A stretch of DNA of 64,000 bases from Arcobacter defluvii. Its GTDB lineage: Bacteria; Campylobacterota; Campylobacteria; Campylobacterales; Arcobacteraceae. Made by a program: the position numbers and the translations under genes. Shown here piece by piece: positions 16,009 to 61,951 of the stretch. Within the stretch, counting starts at the first letter, position 1. Every line of letters begins with the position of its first letter. The notes below the pieces were generated by a model, which was not told where the DNA came from, made no database searches, and was given only the letters and a program-made list of their open reading frames with translations. Where the stretch lies: positions 1,178,001 to 1,242,000 of the forward strand of contig NZ_CP053835.1 of NCBI RefSeq assembly GCF_013201725.1, given 5' to 3'.

Positions 16009-17644
16009 GATTTTTTATAATAACAGGCACAAAAAACATAGAAACAACATAAGAGATAAGTGTTCCTCCTATTAGTGCAACTCCAAGCCCTCCAAATACT
16101 GCATCATTTGCAATCAAGGCACTAGCAAATACCATCGTTAAAACTGTTAAAATAATAGGTTTTGATCTTGTAGCTGTTGCTTTTGCTATTGCTTCATTTA
16201 TTGTAAGATTTTTTTCAATTACAAGTTGTTTTGAAAAATCTATAATTAATGTTGAATTTCTTGAATTTATTCCAATAAGCCCAATAAATCCTATAAGTGA
16301 AGTTGCTGTTAAATAAAATGTATCTGGTGTTATTAAATCCATAATTACATGAGCAAAGATAACTCCAATAATTGAAATAAAACTAGATAATACAATTCCA
16401 CCTGATATTGCAAAACTTTTATAATACATAACCATTAAGAAAAATATTAAAACAAGTGCAATGATAAAAGCTCCACCTAAATCAATAAATGTATCAATTG
16501 TAACTTTTAATTCTCCATCAAATACTAAATCAAATCTCTCTTTTGTTTTTTTATCGATAAAAGATAGGTTTAGAAGGTTTGTTTTTATCACTTCATAATC
16601 ATTATTTAAAGTATCTAACATCTCATCTCTTGCATTTAATAGAGGATAAATTTGGCTATCTTTAGAAGTTTCAGCAATAACATTTATCATTAGATTTAGA
16701 TTTTTTGATGTAATTGTTGGCTCTTTTATAATTTCATTTATTTTTACTAATTCAGAAATATTTATCATATTTCCATCTTTATTCATAAGTTTTAGATTTT
16801 CTAATTTAGCGATTAATGCCTCTTTTGAAGAATCTTTTAAAGTTCTAGAATCATCAAGCCTTAAAAATACTGGAATCTGACTTTGTATATTTTTATTATT
16901 TACAACAGCAACATTCATACCTTCAAATGCTAAATATAAGATATTTTTTAATTGGTCTAAATCAACTTTACTCATGATAACTTTACTATTATCAACTTCA
17001 AGCTCATACATTATAAAATCATCATCAGCTAATACATCAATATCAACTAAAGTTGTTTGATGTTTTAAAATTTGAGCTATTTTTAACGCAAAATCTCTTC
17101 TACTTTCGAAACTATTTCCACCATAAATTTCAGATACTATGGAAGCTAGAACTGGAGGACCAGCTGGAAGTTCAATGAATTTAATATTTGCATTATATAA
17201 AGCACATTTTTCTTGAACATTTTTTCTTAATTGACTTACTAAATTGTAACTTGTAATATCTCTATCTTTTGCTTTTTTAATATTTACCATTATTTCAGCT
17301 TGAGATTCTTTATCTTTTAAAGCACTTTGTTTAACTAATGCTGCAAAATCAAGAGGTTGACCTTCTCCTAAAAAAGCTGAAATATTTGTAATGTTTTCAT
17401 CTTTTTGAAGATTTTTTACTATACATTGTGTTACTTCTTTTGTTTGACTTAAACTTGAACCATCTTTTAAGTCAACATAAATTGAAAAAGTATCTGAATC
17501 TTTACTTGGAAGCATTTTTGCTTTTGTTATGTGTGTTGGAAAAGTTAAAACACTTAAAACAAATAAAATAAAAGTTATTAAATAAACTAAATATGACTTT
17601 GTTTTGCTTTGTAAAATATTATATATAAATTTTTCTAATTTCAT
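15989..17644 (-). CDS. RND efflux permease, C-terminal half (separate gene)
   Basis: 551 residues that correspond to the second half of an AcrB/HAE1-type permease: a first transmembrane helix near residue 20, a periplasmic pore/docking region (about 45-390) and then five helices, including FIDLGGAFIIALVLIFFLM and GLIGINSRNSTLIIDF. The last segment aligns with the AcrB helix that carries the AKN lysine; here it reads SRN. ATG 17644 lies 10 bases after the stop of the N-terminal half and has TAAGG upstream, so it can be translated separately. It is the last gene of tolC-MFP-RND-RND. Confidence 0.85.
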   Translation of the reverse strand: MKLEKFIYNILQSKTKSYLVYLITFILFVLSVLTFPTHITKAKMLPSKDSDTFSIYVDLKDGSSLSQTKEVTQCIVKNLQKDENITNISAFLGEGQPLDFAALVKQSALKDKESQAEIMVNIKKAKDRDITSYNLVSQLRKNVQEKCALYNANIKFIELPAGPPVLASIVSEIYGGNSFESRRDFALKIAQILKHQTTLVDIDVLADDDFIMYELEVDNSKVIMSKVDLDQLKNILYLAFEGMNVAVVNNKNIQSQIPVFLRLDDSRTLKDSSKEALIAKLENLKLMNKDGNMINISELVKINEIIKEPTITSKNLNLMINVIAETSKDSQIYPLLNARDEMLDTLNNDYEVIKTNLLNLSFIDKKTKERFDLVFDGELKVTIDTFIDLGGAFIIALVLIFFLMVMYYKSFAISGGIVLSSFISIIGVIFAHVIMDLITPDTFYLTATSLIGFIGLIGINSRNSTLIIDFSKQLVIEKNLTINEAIAKATATRSKPIILTVLTMVFASALIANDAVFGGLGVALIGGTLISYVVSMFFVPVIIKNQLKKIL

Positions 17645-52028: not shown

Positions 52029-52104
52029 GACCCTGTCGTCTAGTGGCCAAGGACGTCTGGATTTCCTCCAGAACACGCAAGTTCGAATCTTGCTGGGGTC
52101 GCCA
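52029..52104 (+). tRNA. tRNA-Glu (anticodon TTC)
   Basis: 76 bases that fold as a cloverleaf. The acceptor GACCCTG at 52029-52035 pairs with TGGGGTC at 52094-52100 (two G-T pairs), followed by discriminator G and encoded CCA at 52102-52104. The anticodon stem TCTGG/CCAGA encloses the loop ATTTCCT, placing TTC at positions 34-36. The T arm contains GTTCGAATC. The 3' end is the apparent junction with a mobile element. Confidence 0.95.
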
Positions 52105-52534: not shown

Positions 52535-52550
52535 TATCGTACGATATAAT
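52535..52550 (+). promoter_or_regulatory. Promoter with overlapping palindromic operator for the SprT-like gene
   Basis: The perfect 12-base palindrome TATCGTACGATA at 52535-52546 overlaps the -10 element TATAAT at 52545-52550, 30 bases before ATG 52581. A repressor bound there would block RNA polymerase. Confidence 0.55.
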
Positions 52551-52580
52551 TTAAGAAATTAAATATAAAAGATTAAATAT

Positions 52581-53366
52581 ATGAATGAAAAAATACCTAC
52601 TTTAGAATTTTATAAAGATTTACAAGAAATCTATAATATTTTTAATAGAGAACTGTTTGATAATACATTACCTAATTGTTTAATAACAGTACAAAGAAAA
52701 AAACAAGTTATGGGATATTTTAGTCCTGATAGATGGATAAATGATAAAGGTAAGAAAAATCATGAATTAGCTTTAAATCCAGCATATTTTGGAAGTTGTA
52801 ATTTTATAGAAATTTTTCAAACAGTAGTTCATGAAATGTGTCATCTTTGGCAGTTTGAATTTGGTACTCCATCAAGAAAAACTTATCATAACCAAGAGTG
52901 GGCTAATAAAATGGAAAGTATTGGATTAATTCCAAGTGATACAGGAAGAGCTGGAGGTAAAAAAACTGGACAAAAGATGAATGATTACCCTGAAAGAGGA
53001 GGTAAATTTGAAAAGTTATGTATTAAAATATTTAAAGATGGACTATATGTTAAGTGGTTTGATAGGTTTCCTAATGAAATAACAGTTAAAACACCTTTTT
53101 CTCAAGAAGATTATCAAGAACTAGATGAAGAAGAGCTACAAGATGTTATAGATAGTTTAGATGATGATAAAATTTTAGAAAATTTATATACAACAGTTGG
53201 AGAGATAATAAAAGACATCTTACCAGTTGAAGAAGTTAGAGCTCTTAATGAAATAAAACAAAAAACTAAATATATGTGTCCACAATGTAGTTCTTCTGTT
53301 TGGGGAAAACCTAATTTATCTATTAAATGTAATTCTTGCAATATTGATTTTTTTATAGTTACTTAA
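52581..53366 (+). CDS. SprT-like zinc metallopeptidase-fold protein
   Basis: 261 residues. The SprT domain shows the HExxH zinc motif as VVHEMCHLWQFEFG near residue 90 and a C-terminal zinc ribbon CPQC...CNSC near residue 235-255. SprT/Spartan-type proteins cut DNA-protein crosslinks in eukaryotes; bacterial copies on mobile elements have no settled role. A relaxase makes a covalent DNA-protein adduct, so adduct removal is an attractive but unproven idea. No clear ribosome site before ATG 52581. It ends at a good terminator. Confidence 0.85.
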   Translation: MNEKIPTLEFYKDLQEIYNIFNRELFDNTLPNCLITVQRKKQVMGYFSPDRWINDKGKKNHELALNPAYFGSCNFIEIFQTVVHEMCHLWQFEFGTPSRKTYHNQEWANKMESIGLIPSDTGRAGGKKTGQKMNDYPERGGKFEKLCIKIFKDGLYVKWFDRFPNEITVKTPFSQEDYQELDEEELQDVIDSLDDDKILENLYTTVGEIIKDILPVEEVRALNEIKQKTKYMCPQCSSSVWGKPNLSIKCNSCNIDFFIVT

Positions 53367-55369: not shown

Positions 55370-55509
55370 ACCTTTCCTTTTTATTAAATTATAAACTATT
55401 TAAATGAATTATAAATTATCTAATCTTAAATCAATTTTATTTTTTTAATTGTTCTAAAGTTTTAAAAATGTATTATTATTTAATTAATTTGTATTGCAGG
55501 AACGGAAAC

Positions 55510-55592
55510 TATAACACAAAAAGCAGGGCTTTTTTTGTTATATATTTCCCCACCTGTTCTGCAAAGCTCTTAGCTAAAATCTGCGATTTTAG
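55510..55592 (+). other. Candidate origin of transfer (oriT) with RP4-like nick region
   Basis: Upstream of mobC and the relaxase gene. Imperfect inverted repeat TATAACACAAAAAGC / GCTTTTTTTGTTATA (55510-55524, 55528-55542, one mismatch), then CACCTGTTCTGC at 55551-55562, then a perfect hairpin CTAAAATC-TGC-GATTTTAG at 55574-55592. The RP4 nick region reads CACCTATCCTG|C, so the predicted nick is between 55561 and 55562. An inverted repeat just before the nick site is the normal MOBP layout. The hairpins also resemble terminators. Confidence 0.55.
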
Positions 55593-55641
55593 ATTTTTTC
55601 TAACGAAAAAATATTTTTTAAGTATAAAAAATGAGGATTAA

Positions 55642-56199
55642 ATGAATAAAAGAAAATTAAATTTAATTGAGTTAAATGTTGGTGATGAACTTTATAATAT
55701 GTTAAAAGATATAAAAAAAATAACAAGCATACCATTAACAAAAATTGTAATTTCTATTTTAAATGAAAAGCTAGAACAAATAAAAGAATTAAATTATAAT
55801 AAAGAATTTATAGAAGATTATAAAAATATAGATGATACTTTTGAAACACAAATTAGATTTAGAATTAAAGAAAAAGAAAAAATATTTTTAGAAGAACAAT
55901 TAAAAAAAACTGGTAACAAAAGTTTAACAAGCGAGATAAGATATAGATTGATAAATTCTATTTATAAGAATAAATATTTTTTACCAATAGAATTAAAAGA
56001 ACTTTCTAATTTGAACTTTCAAATCAAAAGAATTGGATTAAATATAAATTCAATTTATAAAAAAGTTAATTTCAAAGAAGAGTTAAAAAGTGATGATTAT
56101 ACAAATTTACAAAATAGTATAAATGAAGTAAATGAGAAATTAGATTTAATCTCAAATGAAATAAAAGATATTTTAAAATTTGCAAATAATAGGGATTAA
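55642..56199 (+). CDS. mobC: MobC-like mobilization accessory protein
   Basis: 185 residues. The N-terminal part looks like a short RHH DNA-binding region (LNVGDELYNMLKDIKKITSIP), followed by a second such segment (IRFRIKEKEKIFLEEQLKKTG). The C-terminal helix contains NLNFQIKRIGLNINSIYKKVN, the conserved L.xIG.N.NQI motif of MobC proteins, which open oriT for the relaxase. GAGGA upstream of ATG 55642. The relaxase gene begins two bases after its stop. Confidence 0.75.
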   Translation: MNKRKLNLIELNVGDELYNMLKDIKKITSIPLTKIVISILNEKLEQIKELNYNKEFIEDYKNIDDTFETQIRFRIKEKEKIFLEEQLKKTGNKSLTSEIRYRLINSIYKNKYFLPIELKELSNLNFQIKRIGLNINSIYKKVNFKEELKSDDYTNLQNSINEVNEKLDLISNEIKDILKFANNRD

Positions 56200-56201
56200 T
56201 T

Positions 56202-57428
56202 TTGGCTAGAAGATATAGACTTTTTGAAGATGAACTATTAGCAAAAAGAGTATATACTAGATTAGAAAATGCTTCAAGAACTTCATATAATCATAAACAA
56301 AAAAATAAAAATTCTACAAAAAATAAAGATAATCCACGAGGTAAAGAAGCAGTAATAAAAATAACTGGAAGTTCAAAAAATCTTAATGTATTTAAAAGAC
56401 ATATTGAATATATTACAAGAGATTATGAATTGCCTTTATATGATAATGATGGAAATAAATACGAAGGAAAAGATGAAATAAAAGATTATATTGATTTATA
56501 TAATCATGATGGAGCTATTCCTGAATTTGAAAATATAAATGGTAAAGAACGAAGAGAAGTTATGAATTTTGTATTTTCTATGAAAGAACATAATTCAACT
56601 CCAGCTGATAAACTTATGGAAGCAGTTATAAAAAGTGTAAGAGAAAAATATCCTAACAATCCAGCAGTTTTTAGTTTTCATGGTGATACAGATAATCCAC
56701 ACATACATTGTGATTTAAGAATACAAGATATTAATGGACATAGAATAGATTTTAAGCACAAAGATAGATATGATTTAAGACGAGATTATGCTAAAAATTT
56801 AAGAGATTTAGGAATTGAAGCTTATGCAACAAGTAGAAATGTAAAATATGATTTAGATAAAAATAAAAATTTTGATAGAACAGTACAGGACAAAAATTTA
56901 ACTGGAGCTGATGAAGATAAAATTAAAAATCATCACTATGAAGTTGTAGAATTTGGAAAAGCTAAATATAAATTTGATGAAAATGCAAAAGATAGTTTTT
57001 ATGTAAAATATAAAACTACTAGAGGTGAAATAATTGATATATGGAGTGAAGATTTAGAAAGAGTTGTAAAAGATAATGATATAAAAGTAGGGGAATATGT
57101 AAGATTTAAAATTACAGATAGAGTTCCTGTTGAAGTAAAACTAAAAAAGTTTGATAAGAAAACTAAAAAATATACTGTTTATACAAAATCGGTTTTAAAA
57201 AATGTTTGGGATTGTTCTATTTTAGGAAGAGCTGAAAAAGATTTAAAATCAGTTCCTAAAACTAATAACAGAAAAGTTAAATATGGAACTGAAACAGTTG
57301 TAGATAAAACAGCAGAATTTATAAGAATGAAAAAAGAGAGAGAAGCTAAAGAGGGCTTAAATATTTCGACTGGTAAAAAGCCTAATAAGTTTGGGAAACC
57401 TATTAAAAAAGATGATAGAGATAGATAA
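56202..57428 (+). CDS. MOBP-family relaxase
   Basis: Nicks oriT and pilots the strand during conjugation. 408 residues. Motif I with a candidate catalytic tyrosine is in VFKRHIEYITRDYE near residue 70; the metal-binding motif III is FHGDTDNPHIHCDLRI near 163, the HxDxxxPHxH form typical of MOBP. The C-terminal 180 residues carry no clear helicase or primase, so it is a compact mobilization relaxase. Start is TTG 56202 with AGGGA upstream. No coupling protein or T4SS genes are visible, so transfer may need a helper or genes to the right. Confidence 0.88.
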   Translation: MARRYRLFEDELLAKRVYTRLENASRTSYNHKQKNKNSTKNKDNPRGKEAVIKITGSSKNLNVFKRHIEYITRDYELPLYDNDGNKYEGKDEIKDYIDLYNHDGAIPEFENINGKERREVMNFVFSMKEHNSTPADKLMEAVIKSVREKYPNNPAVFSFHGDTDNPHIHCDLRIQDINGHRIDFKHKDRYDLRRDYAKNLRDLGIEAYATSRNVKYDLDKNKNFDRTVQDKNLTGADEDKIKNHHYEVVEFGKAKYKFDENAKDSFYVKYKTTRGEIIDIWSEDLERVVKDNDIKVGEYVRFKITDRVPVEVKLKKFDKKTKKYTVYTKSVLKNVWDCSILGRAEKDLKSVPKTNNRKVKYGTETVVDKTAEFIRMKKEREAKEGLNISTGKKPNKFGKPIKKDDRDR

Positions 57429-57431
57429 TCT

Positions 57432-57791
57432 CTATTTCTTTAAATCCTGAATGATTAAGTATTCTATATAACTGTTTAACTCTAAGCCAAATTTTGAAGC
57501 TTTATCTTTTACTTGTTCTAGTAAAGTATCATTGATTTTGATTTCATTTTTATTGATTTGTTGTTTATTAAAATCTTTAAATATTTCGTTATATATTCCA
57601 AGTTCTTTACATTTTTTTTTAATAGCATTAATAGAATTTCTAAGTTTCCAGCTTGAAATAGATTGTTGTGTAGTATTTATTTTTGATGCTAACTCTGAAT
57701 ATGTCGAGGCATTATAATGAGATAATAAGTTATCAATTAATATCTCAGCTTGATTAACAAAAAATTTTTCAAAAATTCTTTCAGCTTCCAT
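57432..57791 (-). CDS. CI-type HTH protein with RHH-like tail, antitoxin/regulator candidate
   Basis: 119 residues. Residues 20-66 match the phage CI-repressor HTH family (LLSHYNASTYSELASKINTTQQSISSWKLRN). The C-terminal 45 residues (INDTLLEQVKDKASKFGLELNSYIEYLI) look like a ribbon-helix-helix or MetJ-like segment. It follows the zeta-type kinase by 11 bases in the same operon, after the toxin rather than before it. It converges with the relaxase gene with a 3-base gap, which leaves no room for a terminator. Confidence 0.7.
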   Translation of the reverse strand: MEAERIFEKFFVNQAEILIDNLLSHYNASTYSELASKINTTQQSISSWKLRNSINAIKKKCKELGIYNEIFKDFNKQQINKNEIKINDTLLEQVKDKASKFGLELNSYIEYLIIQDLKK

Positions 57792-61785: not shown

Positions 61786-61846
61786 TATTAATTAATATTA
61801 ATTAATATCACTAATTGAATATTATAATTTATAATATTAATTAATA
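61786..61846. promoter_or_regulatory. Three TATTAATTAATA repeats upstream of the ParA operon
   Basis: Copies at 61786-61797, 61796-61807 and 61835-61846. They differ by one base from the TATTAGTTAATA pair at 58777-58808. Operator or iteron function is possible; the first two overlap by two bases. Confidence 0.6.
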
Positions 61847-61910
61847 CTTAAAAGTATTTATTAATATTAAATAATGTTAAAAAATATTGATAATTTAAAA
61901 TTGAACCAAA

Positions 61911-61951
61911 AAAAATATAGTACCAGGATAAAATCTTGGTACTATATTTTT
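61911..61951 (-). terminator. Terminator of the helicase gene
   Basis: A 17-bp stem between 61911-61927 and 61935-61951 with one G-T pair and a seven-base loop, A/T-rich at the base. It starts at the stop codon of the helicase gene. Confidence 0.8.

Follow-up and report, generated by a model that had tools for sequence, protein, structure and literature searches.

Recurrence of a palindromic operator upstream of the SprT-type metalloprotease gene mpr and its covariation with two residues of Mpr

Why should the gene of a predicted SprT-type protease on a mobile element be preceded by a palindrome that overlaps its candidate promoter, and which protein reads this palindrome? The question is raised by a 64,000-nucleotide stretch of the Arcobacter defluvii chromosome (NZ_CP053835.1, positions 1,178,001–1,242,000, forward strand; referred to as the window), where such a gene is the first, at the left end, of a 42-kb element. 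The gene product belongs, by homology, to the known plasmid family Mpr, and the gene is called mpr here. The initial annotation had proposed that the protease may remove covalent relaxase or other DNA adducts during transfer of the element and be induced at that time, and had asked for the repressor of the palindrome. Judged by comparison with its relatives, the palindrome is a dedicated operator of mpr. Two of its bases covary with two residues of the protein, which suggests that Mpr itself is the reader.

A palindrome that recurs in front of mpr

The perfect 12-base palindrome TATCGTACGATA noted at the outset is indeed present, as the centre of an 18-mer, TTGTATCGTACGATATAA, whose right end overlaps a TATAAT, the candidate −10 of mpr (Table 1). 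This promoter was not listed by a sigma-70 consensus scan, in our opinion because no good −35 precedes it. The 12-mer has a single match in the window at up to one mismatch. Perfect 12-bp palindromes number 49 in the window, compared with 53 expected under a Markov model, and those with at least four G/C number 6, compared with 7.2 expected. Significance of the palindrome by itself was rejected, the window counts being no higher than chance; its significance arises from comparison with relatives only. That comparison supports the early suggestion of an operator. In the whole genome, exact matches of TTRKATHGTACDATMYAA were found in front of the two mpr copies only (the element is present twice, see below).

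The consensus of the site is TTG[G/T]AT[T/C]G[T/C][A/G]C[A/G]AT[A/C]CAA, an 18-bp palindrome present in one to four copies upstream of Mpr, from which the window site differs by one mismatch. Campylobacterota, Bacteroidota and Pseudomonadota all have records in which a variant of it precedes Mpr. When 23 Mpr loci were searched at up to three mismatches, 32 occurrences fell in 11,960 bp of upstream windows, compared with 8 in 299,788 bp elsewhere. The motif was found at 21 of the 23 loci; L041 had none, and L030 had two copies farther upstream, preceding several small genes in a row.

Loci chosen by protein and dereplicated at 85% were then scored for a motif within 320 bp upstream. It was present for 17 of 20 Mpr from plasmids and the window's own genus (the window's included) and for 19 of 52 viral Mpr, the latter being an independent test because the motif had been written from the plasmid and own loci. 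Reversed motifs gave 0 in these sets, and column-shuffled palindromes at most 1. Before dereplication the motif was present at 41 of 78 viral loci, two of the 80 having been dropped for less than 80 bp of upstream sequence. The IncN plasmid locus L023 was counted as site-less in the cluster counts (the 17 of 20, and the 37 site-less clusters below) because its start was taken upstream of the annotated one; the annotated start gives it the site.

The operator alone was also used for selection. A scan with TTGKATYGTACRATMCAA, using one genome per species and no protein, returned at least 116 loci. Among the matches listed, an Mpr frame accompanied 37 of 74 perfect palindromes and 1 of 42 imperfect ones (Fisher p 2e-8). 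Of the 39 Mpr frames in this listed set, 38 had the site no more than 190 bp ahead of their start, 32 of them within 60 bp.

Some counts tell against Mpr as the reader of its own operator. Among the matches listed, 37 perfect palindromes had no Mpr in the stored stretch; about 14 perfect palindromes are expected by chance, as estimated from the 41 Mpr-less imperfect ones listed (12 of 16 pattern combinations). Inspection by eye of the first open reading frames beside the 37 listed revealed no second gene family behind the operator. Moreover, no site within 320 bp was seen for 33 of the 52 viral Mpr clusters, nor for 3 of the 20 plasmid or own ones. When the site-less Mpr were inspected by eye for alternative palindromes, only L172 showed a sequence closely related to the motif, TTGTAAGGTACTTTACAA.

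Two loci deserve separate mention. L172, whose Mpr has Q131 and K228, carries two variant palindromes upstream of the gene, TTGTAAGGTACTTTACAA and TTGTAAAGTACCTTACAA, perhaps a further operator class. L026 holds a second Mpr-type operator (16634–16651), flanked by the gene of a Y-family DNA polymerase and by a gene with weak NikA-like/ribbon–helix–helix matches, and Mpr perhaps also acts at a mob region.

Operator bases and Mpr residues

To the covariation set, 141 Mpr frames contributed 106 clusters at 85% identity, 64 of which had a site at up to two mismatches. No gene family occurred within 3 kb at more than 10 of these 64 loci (blastp, E 1e-4; some flanks were short), the commonest being ParA-like (10 of 64) and ParB-like (6 of 64). 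As there was no common neighbour family, attention turned to Mpr itself as the reader.

Mutual information was calculated for each alignment column against each operator base, with 60 pairs typed at base 4 and 57 at base 7. For base 4, residue 131 scored z 24.5 (next column 8.7): G was accompanied by Glu in 13 and Asp in 4 proteins, and T by Gln in 34, Asp in 8 and Pro in 1. For base 7, residue 228 scored z 32.7 (next column 9.2): C went with Lys in 28 and Arg in 2 proteins, and T with Arg in 25 and a gap in 2. The median column had a z of about 0.8. Residues 131 and 228 were also top among 172–182 columns in the operator-chosen and the protein-chosen loci separately, these being disjoint subsets.

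Shared descent was considered with a tree built without columns 131 and 228. On it, base 4 changed 7 times and residue 131 (Glu/Asp versus Gln) 8 times, while base 7 and residue 228 changed 8 times each. Independent paired switches on well-supported branches numbered 5 for base 4 and 3 for base 7, and none was contrary. Individual pairs illustrate this. The sister plasmids L038 (E131, GTGGAT...) and L039 (Q131, CTGTAT...) switched jointly at base 4 and residue 131, as did L022 (K228, C7) and L031 (R228, T7) at base 7 and residue 228. Two adjacent paralogues in L108 (1659–2483 and 3403–4248) carry TTGGATC... with E131 and TTGTATC... with Q131, respectively.

The residue–base rule was then fixed in advance and applied to 10 plasmid and 80 viral new loci. 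After 60 of the 90 had been dropped as near-copies, 30 unseen Mpr remained, less than 85% identical to the training proteins, and their sites were located by the 12 constant positions only. A site was present for 11 of the 30 (4 on plasmids, 7 on viral contigs). Base 4 was predicted correctly in 7 of 7 cases (5 Gln, 2 Glu), an outcome of 1.5% probability under the training base frequencies, and base 7 in 9 of 9 cases of R228, all with T7/A12. Of the unseen Mpr, 11 of the 19 with Gln, Glu or Asp at 131 had a site, whereas none of the 11 that carry a different residue there did (p 0.0016).

Several observations weigh against the reading that these residues contact the operator. The sign test on the switches was not significant (median p 0.125 for base 4 and 0.5 for base 7); it cannot reach 0.05 because the independent switch pairs are too few. 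Asp at 131 was found with either base 4, and two C7 operators were paired with R228 (L112, L192). No site was found for 19 of the 30 unseen Mpr. Both unseen K228 cases (L242, L273) agreed with the prediction at one half-site only, having G12 but T or A at base 7, and the Lys-to-C half of the code is thus not fully confirmed. Gln at 131 was present in 23 of the 37 site-less training clusters, and therefore residue 131 alone does not predict whether a site is present. As to structure, no helix-turn-helix was reported in Mpr, and the model of the protein, a DNA-free monomer, does not reveal if residues 131 and 228 share a face.

The site-less unseen viral Mpr with Arg, Asn or Lys at 131 were L287, L288, L291, L294, L296, L297, L299, L306, L316, L319 and L327. 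Such proteins may read another site or may have lost DNA reading.

The Mpr protein and its possible role

The 261-residue product matched the Pfam SprT-like profile PF10263 with 50.6 bits (curated cut-off 25.6), and the HExxH motif (HEMCH, codons 84–88) and zinc ribbon (C233–C253) first read from the sequence are both there. H84, E85, H88 and H103 were invariant in 32 of 32 aligned Mpr, H103 being, from its position, the probable third metal ligand; all four ribbon cysteines were at least 90% conserved in the Mpr alignment A1. An AlphaFold model (mean pLDDT 84.6) has the SprT fold: the nearest solved structure was human SPRTN (6MDX; Z 10.4, 3.2 Å over 106 residues, 19% identity), and yeast Wss1 gave Z 6.9. 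Foldseek alone was weaker (E 0.005). Searches of the PDB by sequence gave weak matches only for the single protein (best E 0.02) and nothing at E 0.01 for the Mpr alignment. No second Pfam domain was above its cut-off, CoiA_N being sub-threshold only. Profile match and modelled fold agree with the original assignment to the SprT/Spartan-type metalloproteases. Mpr shares with SPRTN and Wss1 the SprT fold with HExxH, whereas its identity to SPRTN is low and the dedicated operator is its own; SPRTN is not known as a sequence-specific regulator.

Relatives of Mpr were detected by tblastn in 2622 of 72,556 plasmid records, 2188 of them typed conjugative, and in 7 of 50,697 phage records. In 2400 of the 2622, the match covered at least 80% of the protein, a full-length homology that includes the zinc ribbon. 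Mpr genes also occur on predicted viral contigs, and a match was found in 4 of 200 genomes searched, the window's own included. The closest relatives are Aliarcobacter plasmid proteins (63–65% identity); one IncN Mpr is about 38% identical. Carriers include IncX3 and IncN resistance plasmids, as well as plasmids typed MOBF or MOBC.

In the relevant passages on IncN pKM101/R46, IncU RA3 and the Aliarcobacter plasmid AB-1119-LD, Mpr is annotated as a putative zinc metalloproteinase without an assigned function (PMC7414963, PMC7783346, PMC3896396, PMC3347995), and these passages describe neither regulation nor an operator of mpr. RA3 mpR is grouped there with the genes ‘of unassigned plasmid functions’ (PMC7414963). 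A family spread over so many plasmid records, resistance plasmids among them, has thus been left without a role in the passages concerned. Window mpr and these genes are alike in full-length homology and in operator type, the latter likeness resting on the IncN, IncU-typed and Aliarcobacter plasmids compared and not on pKM101 or RA3 themselves; they differ in that the window gene lies on a chromosomal integrative element. A search of 5.39 million open papers for six operator core sequences gave, among the 17 papers listed, none titled on conjugative plasmids or SprT. Literature searches on SprT with conjugative plasmids, metalloprotease or leading region returned the paper on ArdC only, and further searches gave no paper title on Mpr function or regulation. 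By word search, the main text of PMC11541004 contained none of SprT, protease, ArdC, metallo, peptidase and mpr.

From the covariation we infer that Mpr binds its own operator directly, as a dimer, and that it represses rather than activates, because the operator overlaps the promoter. A pair of Mpr molecules would occupy the 18-bp palindrome, which overlies the promoter, and so turn mpr off. In each half-site, base pair 4 would be recognised by the loop surrounding residue 131, where Gln would specify T/A and Glu G/C. Base pair 7 would be recognised by residue 228, immediately ahead of the zinc ribbon, with Lys specifying C/G and Arg T/A. A donor in which the element is established would keep mpr low; in a recipient without Mpr, a burst of expression would continue until the protein builds up, as follows from self-repression. 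During the burst, a DNA-dependent protease would clear proteins from the incoming DNA, possibly relaxase in an adduct, a restriction enzyme or some other host protein bound there; the identity of the target is speculative. The account as a whole, with Mpr as its own transcription factor under negative autoregulation, a burst in the recipient and a protease acting on the incoming DNA, appears to us probable. A separate repressor of the kind sought at the outset may thus not exist, since the covariation points to Mpr as the reader. The setting is consistent with induction at transfer, as had been proposed, although in the account favoured here it would be Mpr, and no separate repressor, that times it.

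A wider proposal is offered tentatively, as one that could well prove too broad. Mpr would constitute a branch of the SprT/Spartan proteases that binds DNA sequence-specifically, at once protease and own repressor, with a two-residue/two-base code maintained across plasmids, integrative elements and phages from several phyla. Such plasmids would have it at the front of the entering DNA, for a self-limiting proteolytic burst in every new host. If true, a Spartan-type protease acts as a sequence-specific transcription factor, and the operator marks when the protease is needed, i.e., on arrival in a new cell.

The order of genes bears on entry. L032, L035 and L036 share an arrangement of relaxase and mobC followed by a divergent Mpr. 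On the Mpr strand, a sequence resembling the MOBP nick consensus precedes the gene by 215–242 bp in L032, L035 and L125, and by 370 bp in L036. If this resemblance holds, a recipient of those plasmids would receive Mpr ahead of every other gene. In RA3, which also has a mobC–relaxase operon, the nick site is upstream of mobC, and its mutation abolished mobilisation according to the passage concerned (PMC4175270).

Other roles have to be weighed against autoregulation. An ArdC-like protein, made early in the recipient against restriction enzymes or DNA-bound defences, is an explanation that we consider possible, if rather doubtful. The IncN plasmids examined carry Mpr beside ardK and mucAB, or beside an antirestriction gene and ssb. 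The ArdC of R388, as described in the passages available, is likewise a Spartan-like metalloprotease on conjugative DNA, needed in the recipient and encoded in the maintenance sector of the leading region (PMC7213743). It has, however, an N-terminal domain that binds single-stranded DNA and a Glu as third metal ligand, as the same passages state (PMC7213743), whereas Mpr has no second domain above cut-off and the invariant H103 in place of Glu. ArdC is the best functional analogue of Mpr that we can name, yet Mpr is no ArdC. The role envisaged in the initial annotation, a Spartan-like repair protease that strips covalent relaxase from the transferred strand with the operator providing only the timing, seems to us unlikely. 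SPRTN as nearest solved fold, the nick-like sites near Mpr and its divergence from mobC–relaxase are in its favour. Relaxases, on the other hand, normally release themselves on recircularisation, and Mpr is also present in phage records, on predicted viral contigs and on MOBF or MOBC plasmids. Its occurrence in phage records and on viral contigs makes it unlikely that the family serves solely to deal with relaxase adducts.

The palindrome might instead be bound by a separate repressor, encoded by host or element, with Mpr merely regulated. This is the usual arrangement for plasmid establishment genes, regulators of the ArdK and KorA/KorB types being known, and the element does encode helix-turn-helix-like proteins (57432–57791, a sub-threshold CI-repressor match; 92161–92547 in window coordinates, RstR-like and below cut-off). 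Nevertheless, the operator covaries with residues of Mpr itself, no regulator family was found in common within 3 kb at the 64 loci, and the genome has no second exact site at which such a repressor could regulate its own gene; we consider this quite improbable. ArdK offers a concrete case. The passages seen describe it as binding CUP sites upstream of genes of the ardK, ardB and replication-gene kinds (PMC6289460), in a regulon that resembles Mpr in that IncN maintenance genes are repressed from upstream sites and ardK is autoregulated (PMC6289460, PMC5371602). ArdK is, however, a dedicated repressor of several operons, whereas Mpr is apparently enzyme and regulator in one, usually with one target. 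L023 holds ardK, ardB and a replication gene and has the motif only at mpr, and therefore ArdK is an unlikely reader in IncN. Lastly, Mpr could cleave a repressor of the element and so trigger transfer, as ImmA cleaves ImmR in ICEBs1. The element does encode cI/RstR-like proteins, but ImmA belongs to another peptidase family, no ImmA-type Pfam match was found in the window search, and Mpr is on plasmids of many kinds; this we regard as very improbable.

The element that carries mpr

The features of the locus are collected in Table 1.

Table 1. Features at the mpr locus (window coordinates)
Feature	Position	Strand	Basis or remark
tRNA-Glu (TTC), left attachment site	52029–52104	+	ARAGORN; junction sequences
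18-bp Mpr operator TTGTATCGTACGATATAA	52532–52549	none	8 of 9 pairs complementary; base 4 = T/A, base 7 = C/G
12-base perfect palindrome TATCGTACGATA	52535–52546		Centre of the 18-mer
TATAAT, candidate −10, overlapped by right end of operator	52545–52550	+	Read from sequence
mpr (sprT-like) coding sequence	52581–53366	+	261 aa, ATG start; predicted SprT-type zinc metalloprotease, C-terminal zinc ribbon
HEMCH (HExxH active site), codons 84–88	52830–52844	+	Alignment
Codon 131 (Gln), covaries with operator base 4	52971–52973	+	Covariation analysis
Codon 228 (Lys), covaries with operator base 7	53262–53264	+	Covariation analysis
Zinc ribbon C-x2-C ... C-x2-C (C233/C236/C250/C253)	53277–53339	+	Sequence
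Candidate oriT gap upstream of mobC-like gene	55370–55641	none	Weak; inverted repeat 55510–55542 beside minus-strand TTCCTGC (~55501)
MobC-like relaxosome accessory protein	55642–56199	+	19.5 bits, below Pfam cut-off 23.2
MobP1-family relaxase	56202–57428	+	263 bits, cut-off 200

The element begins inside the tRNA-Glu gene, the 3′ part of which is repeated at its far end (att repeats). Identity between this copy, most of which extends past the end of the window, and a second one starts at window position 52059. The second copy, 100% identical over 42,022 bp, lies on the same chromosome (1874096–1832075) of the 3.02-Mb genome. It is inserted near the start of an isocitrate/isopropylmalate dehydrogenase-like gene (PF00180, 450 bits), a protein-coding site that shares almost no homologous sequence with the tRNA site, and is, on this comparison, a recent secondary integration.

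A MobP1 relaxase, VirB11, VirB10 and topoisomerase III were above their curated cut-offs in the element; VirB4 (601.7 of 643.1 bits), VirD4, a tyrosine recombinase and an excisionase (25.8 of 28.8) were clear matches below theirs. The relaxase system that had been noted beside the protease gene is thus present, with the MobC-like match below cut-off. Relaxase, type IV secretion system-type genes and att repeats at tRNA-Glu identify the carrier, by its predicted gene content, as an integrative and conjugative element, in line with the conjugative carriage supposed earlier. A search of the element in the window gave no clear nick site, only a weak nick-like one upstream of the mobC-like gene; the TTCCTGC there was judged against the MOBP nick consensus, and the site is uncertain.

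Two zeta-toxin-like kinases (PF06414; 54149–54751 and 57803–58432, the latter on the minus strand) are encoded on either side of the relaxase genes. Repeats of about 109 bp, 84% alike, flank the 1897-aa gene of the element (61843–61949 and 67700–67806, the latter outside the window). Tandem 300-bp repeats were seen within its 1198-aa gene, at 73381–74889 in window coordinates, i.e., outside the window (L008).
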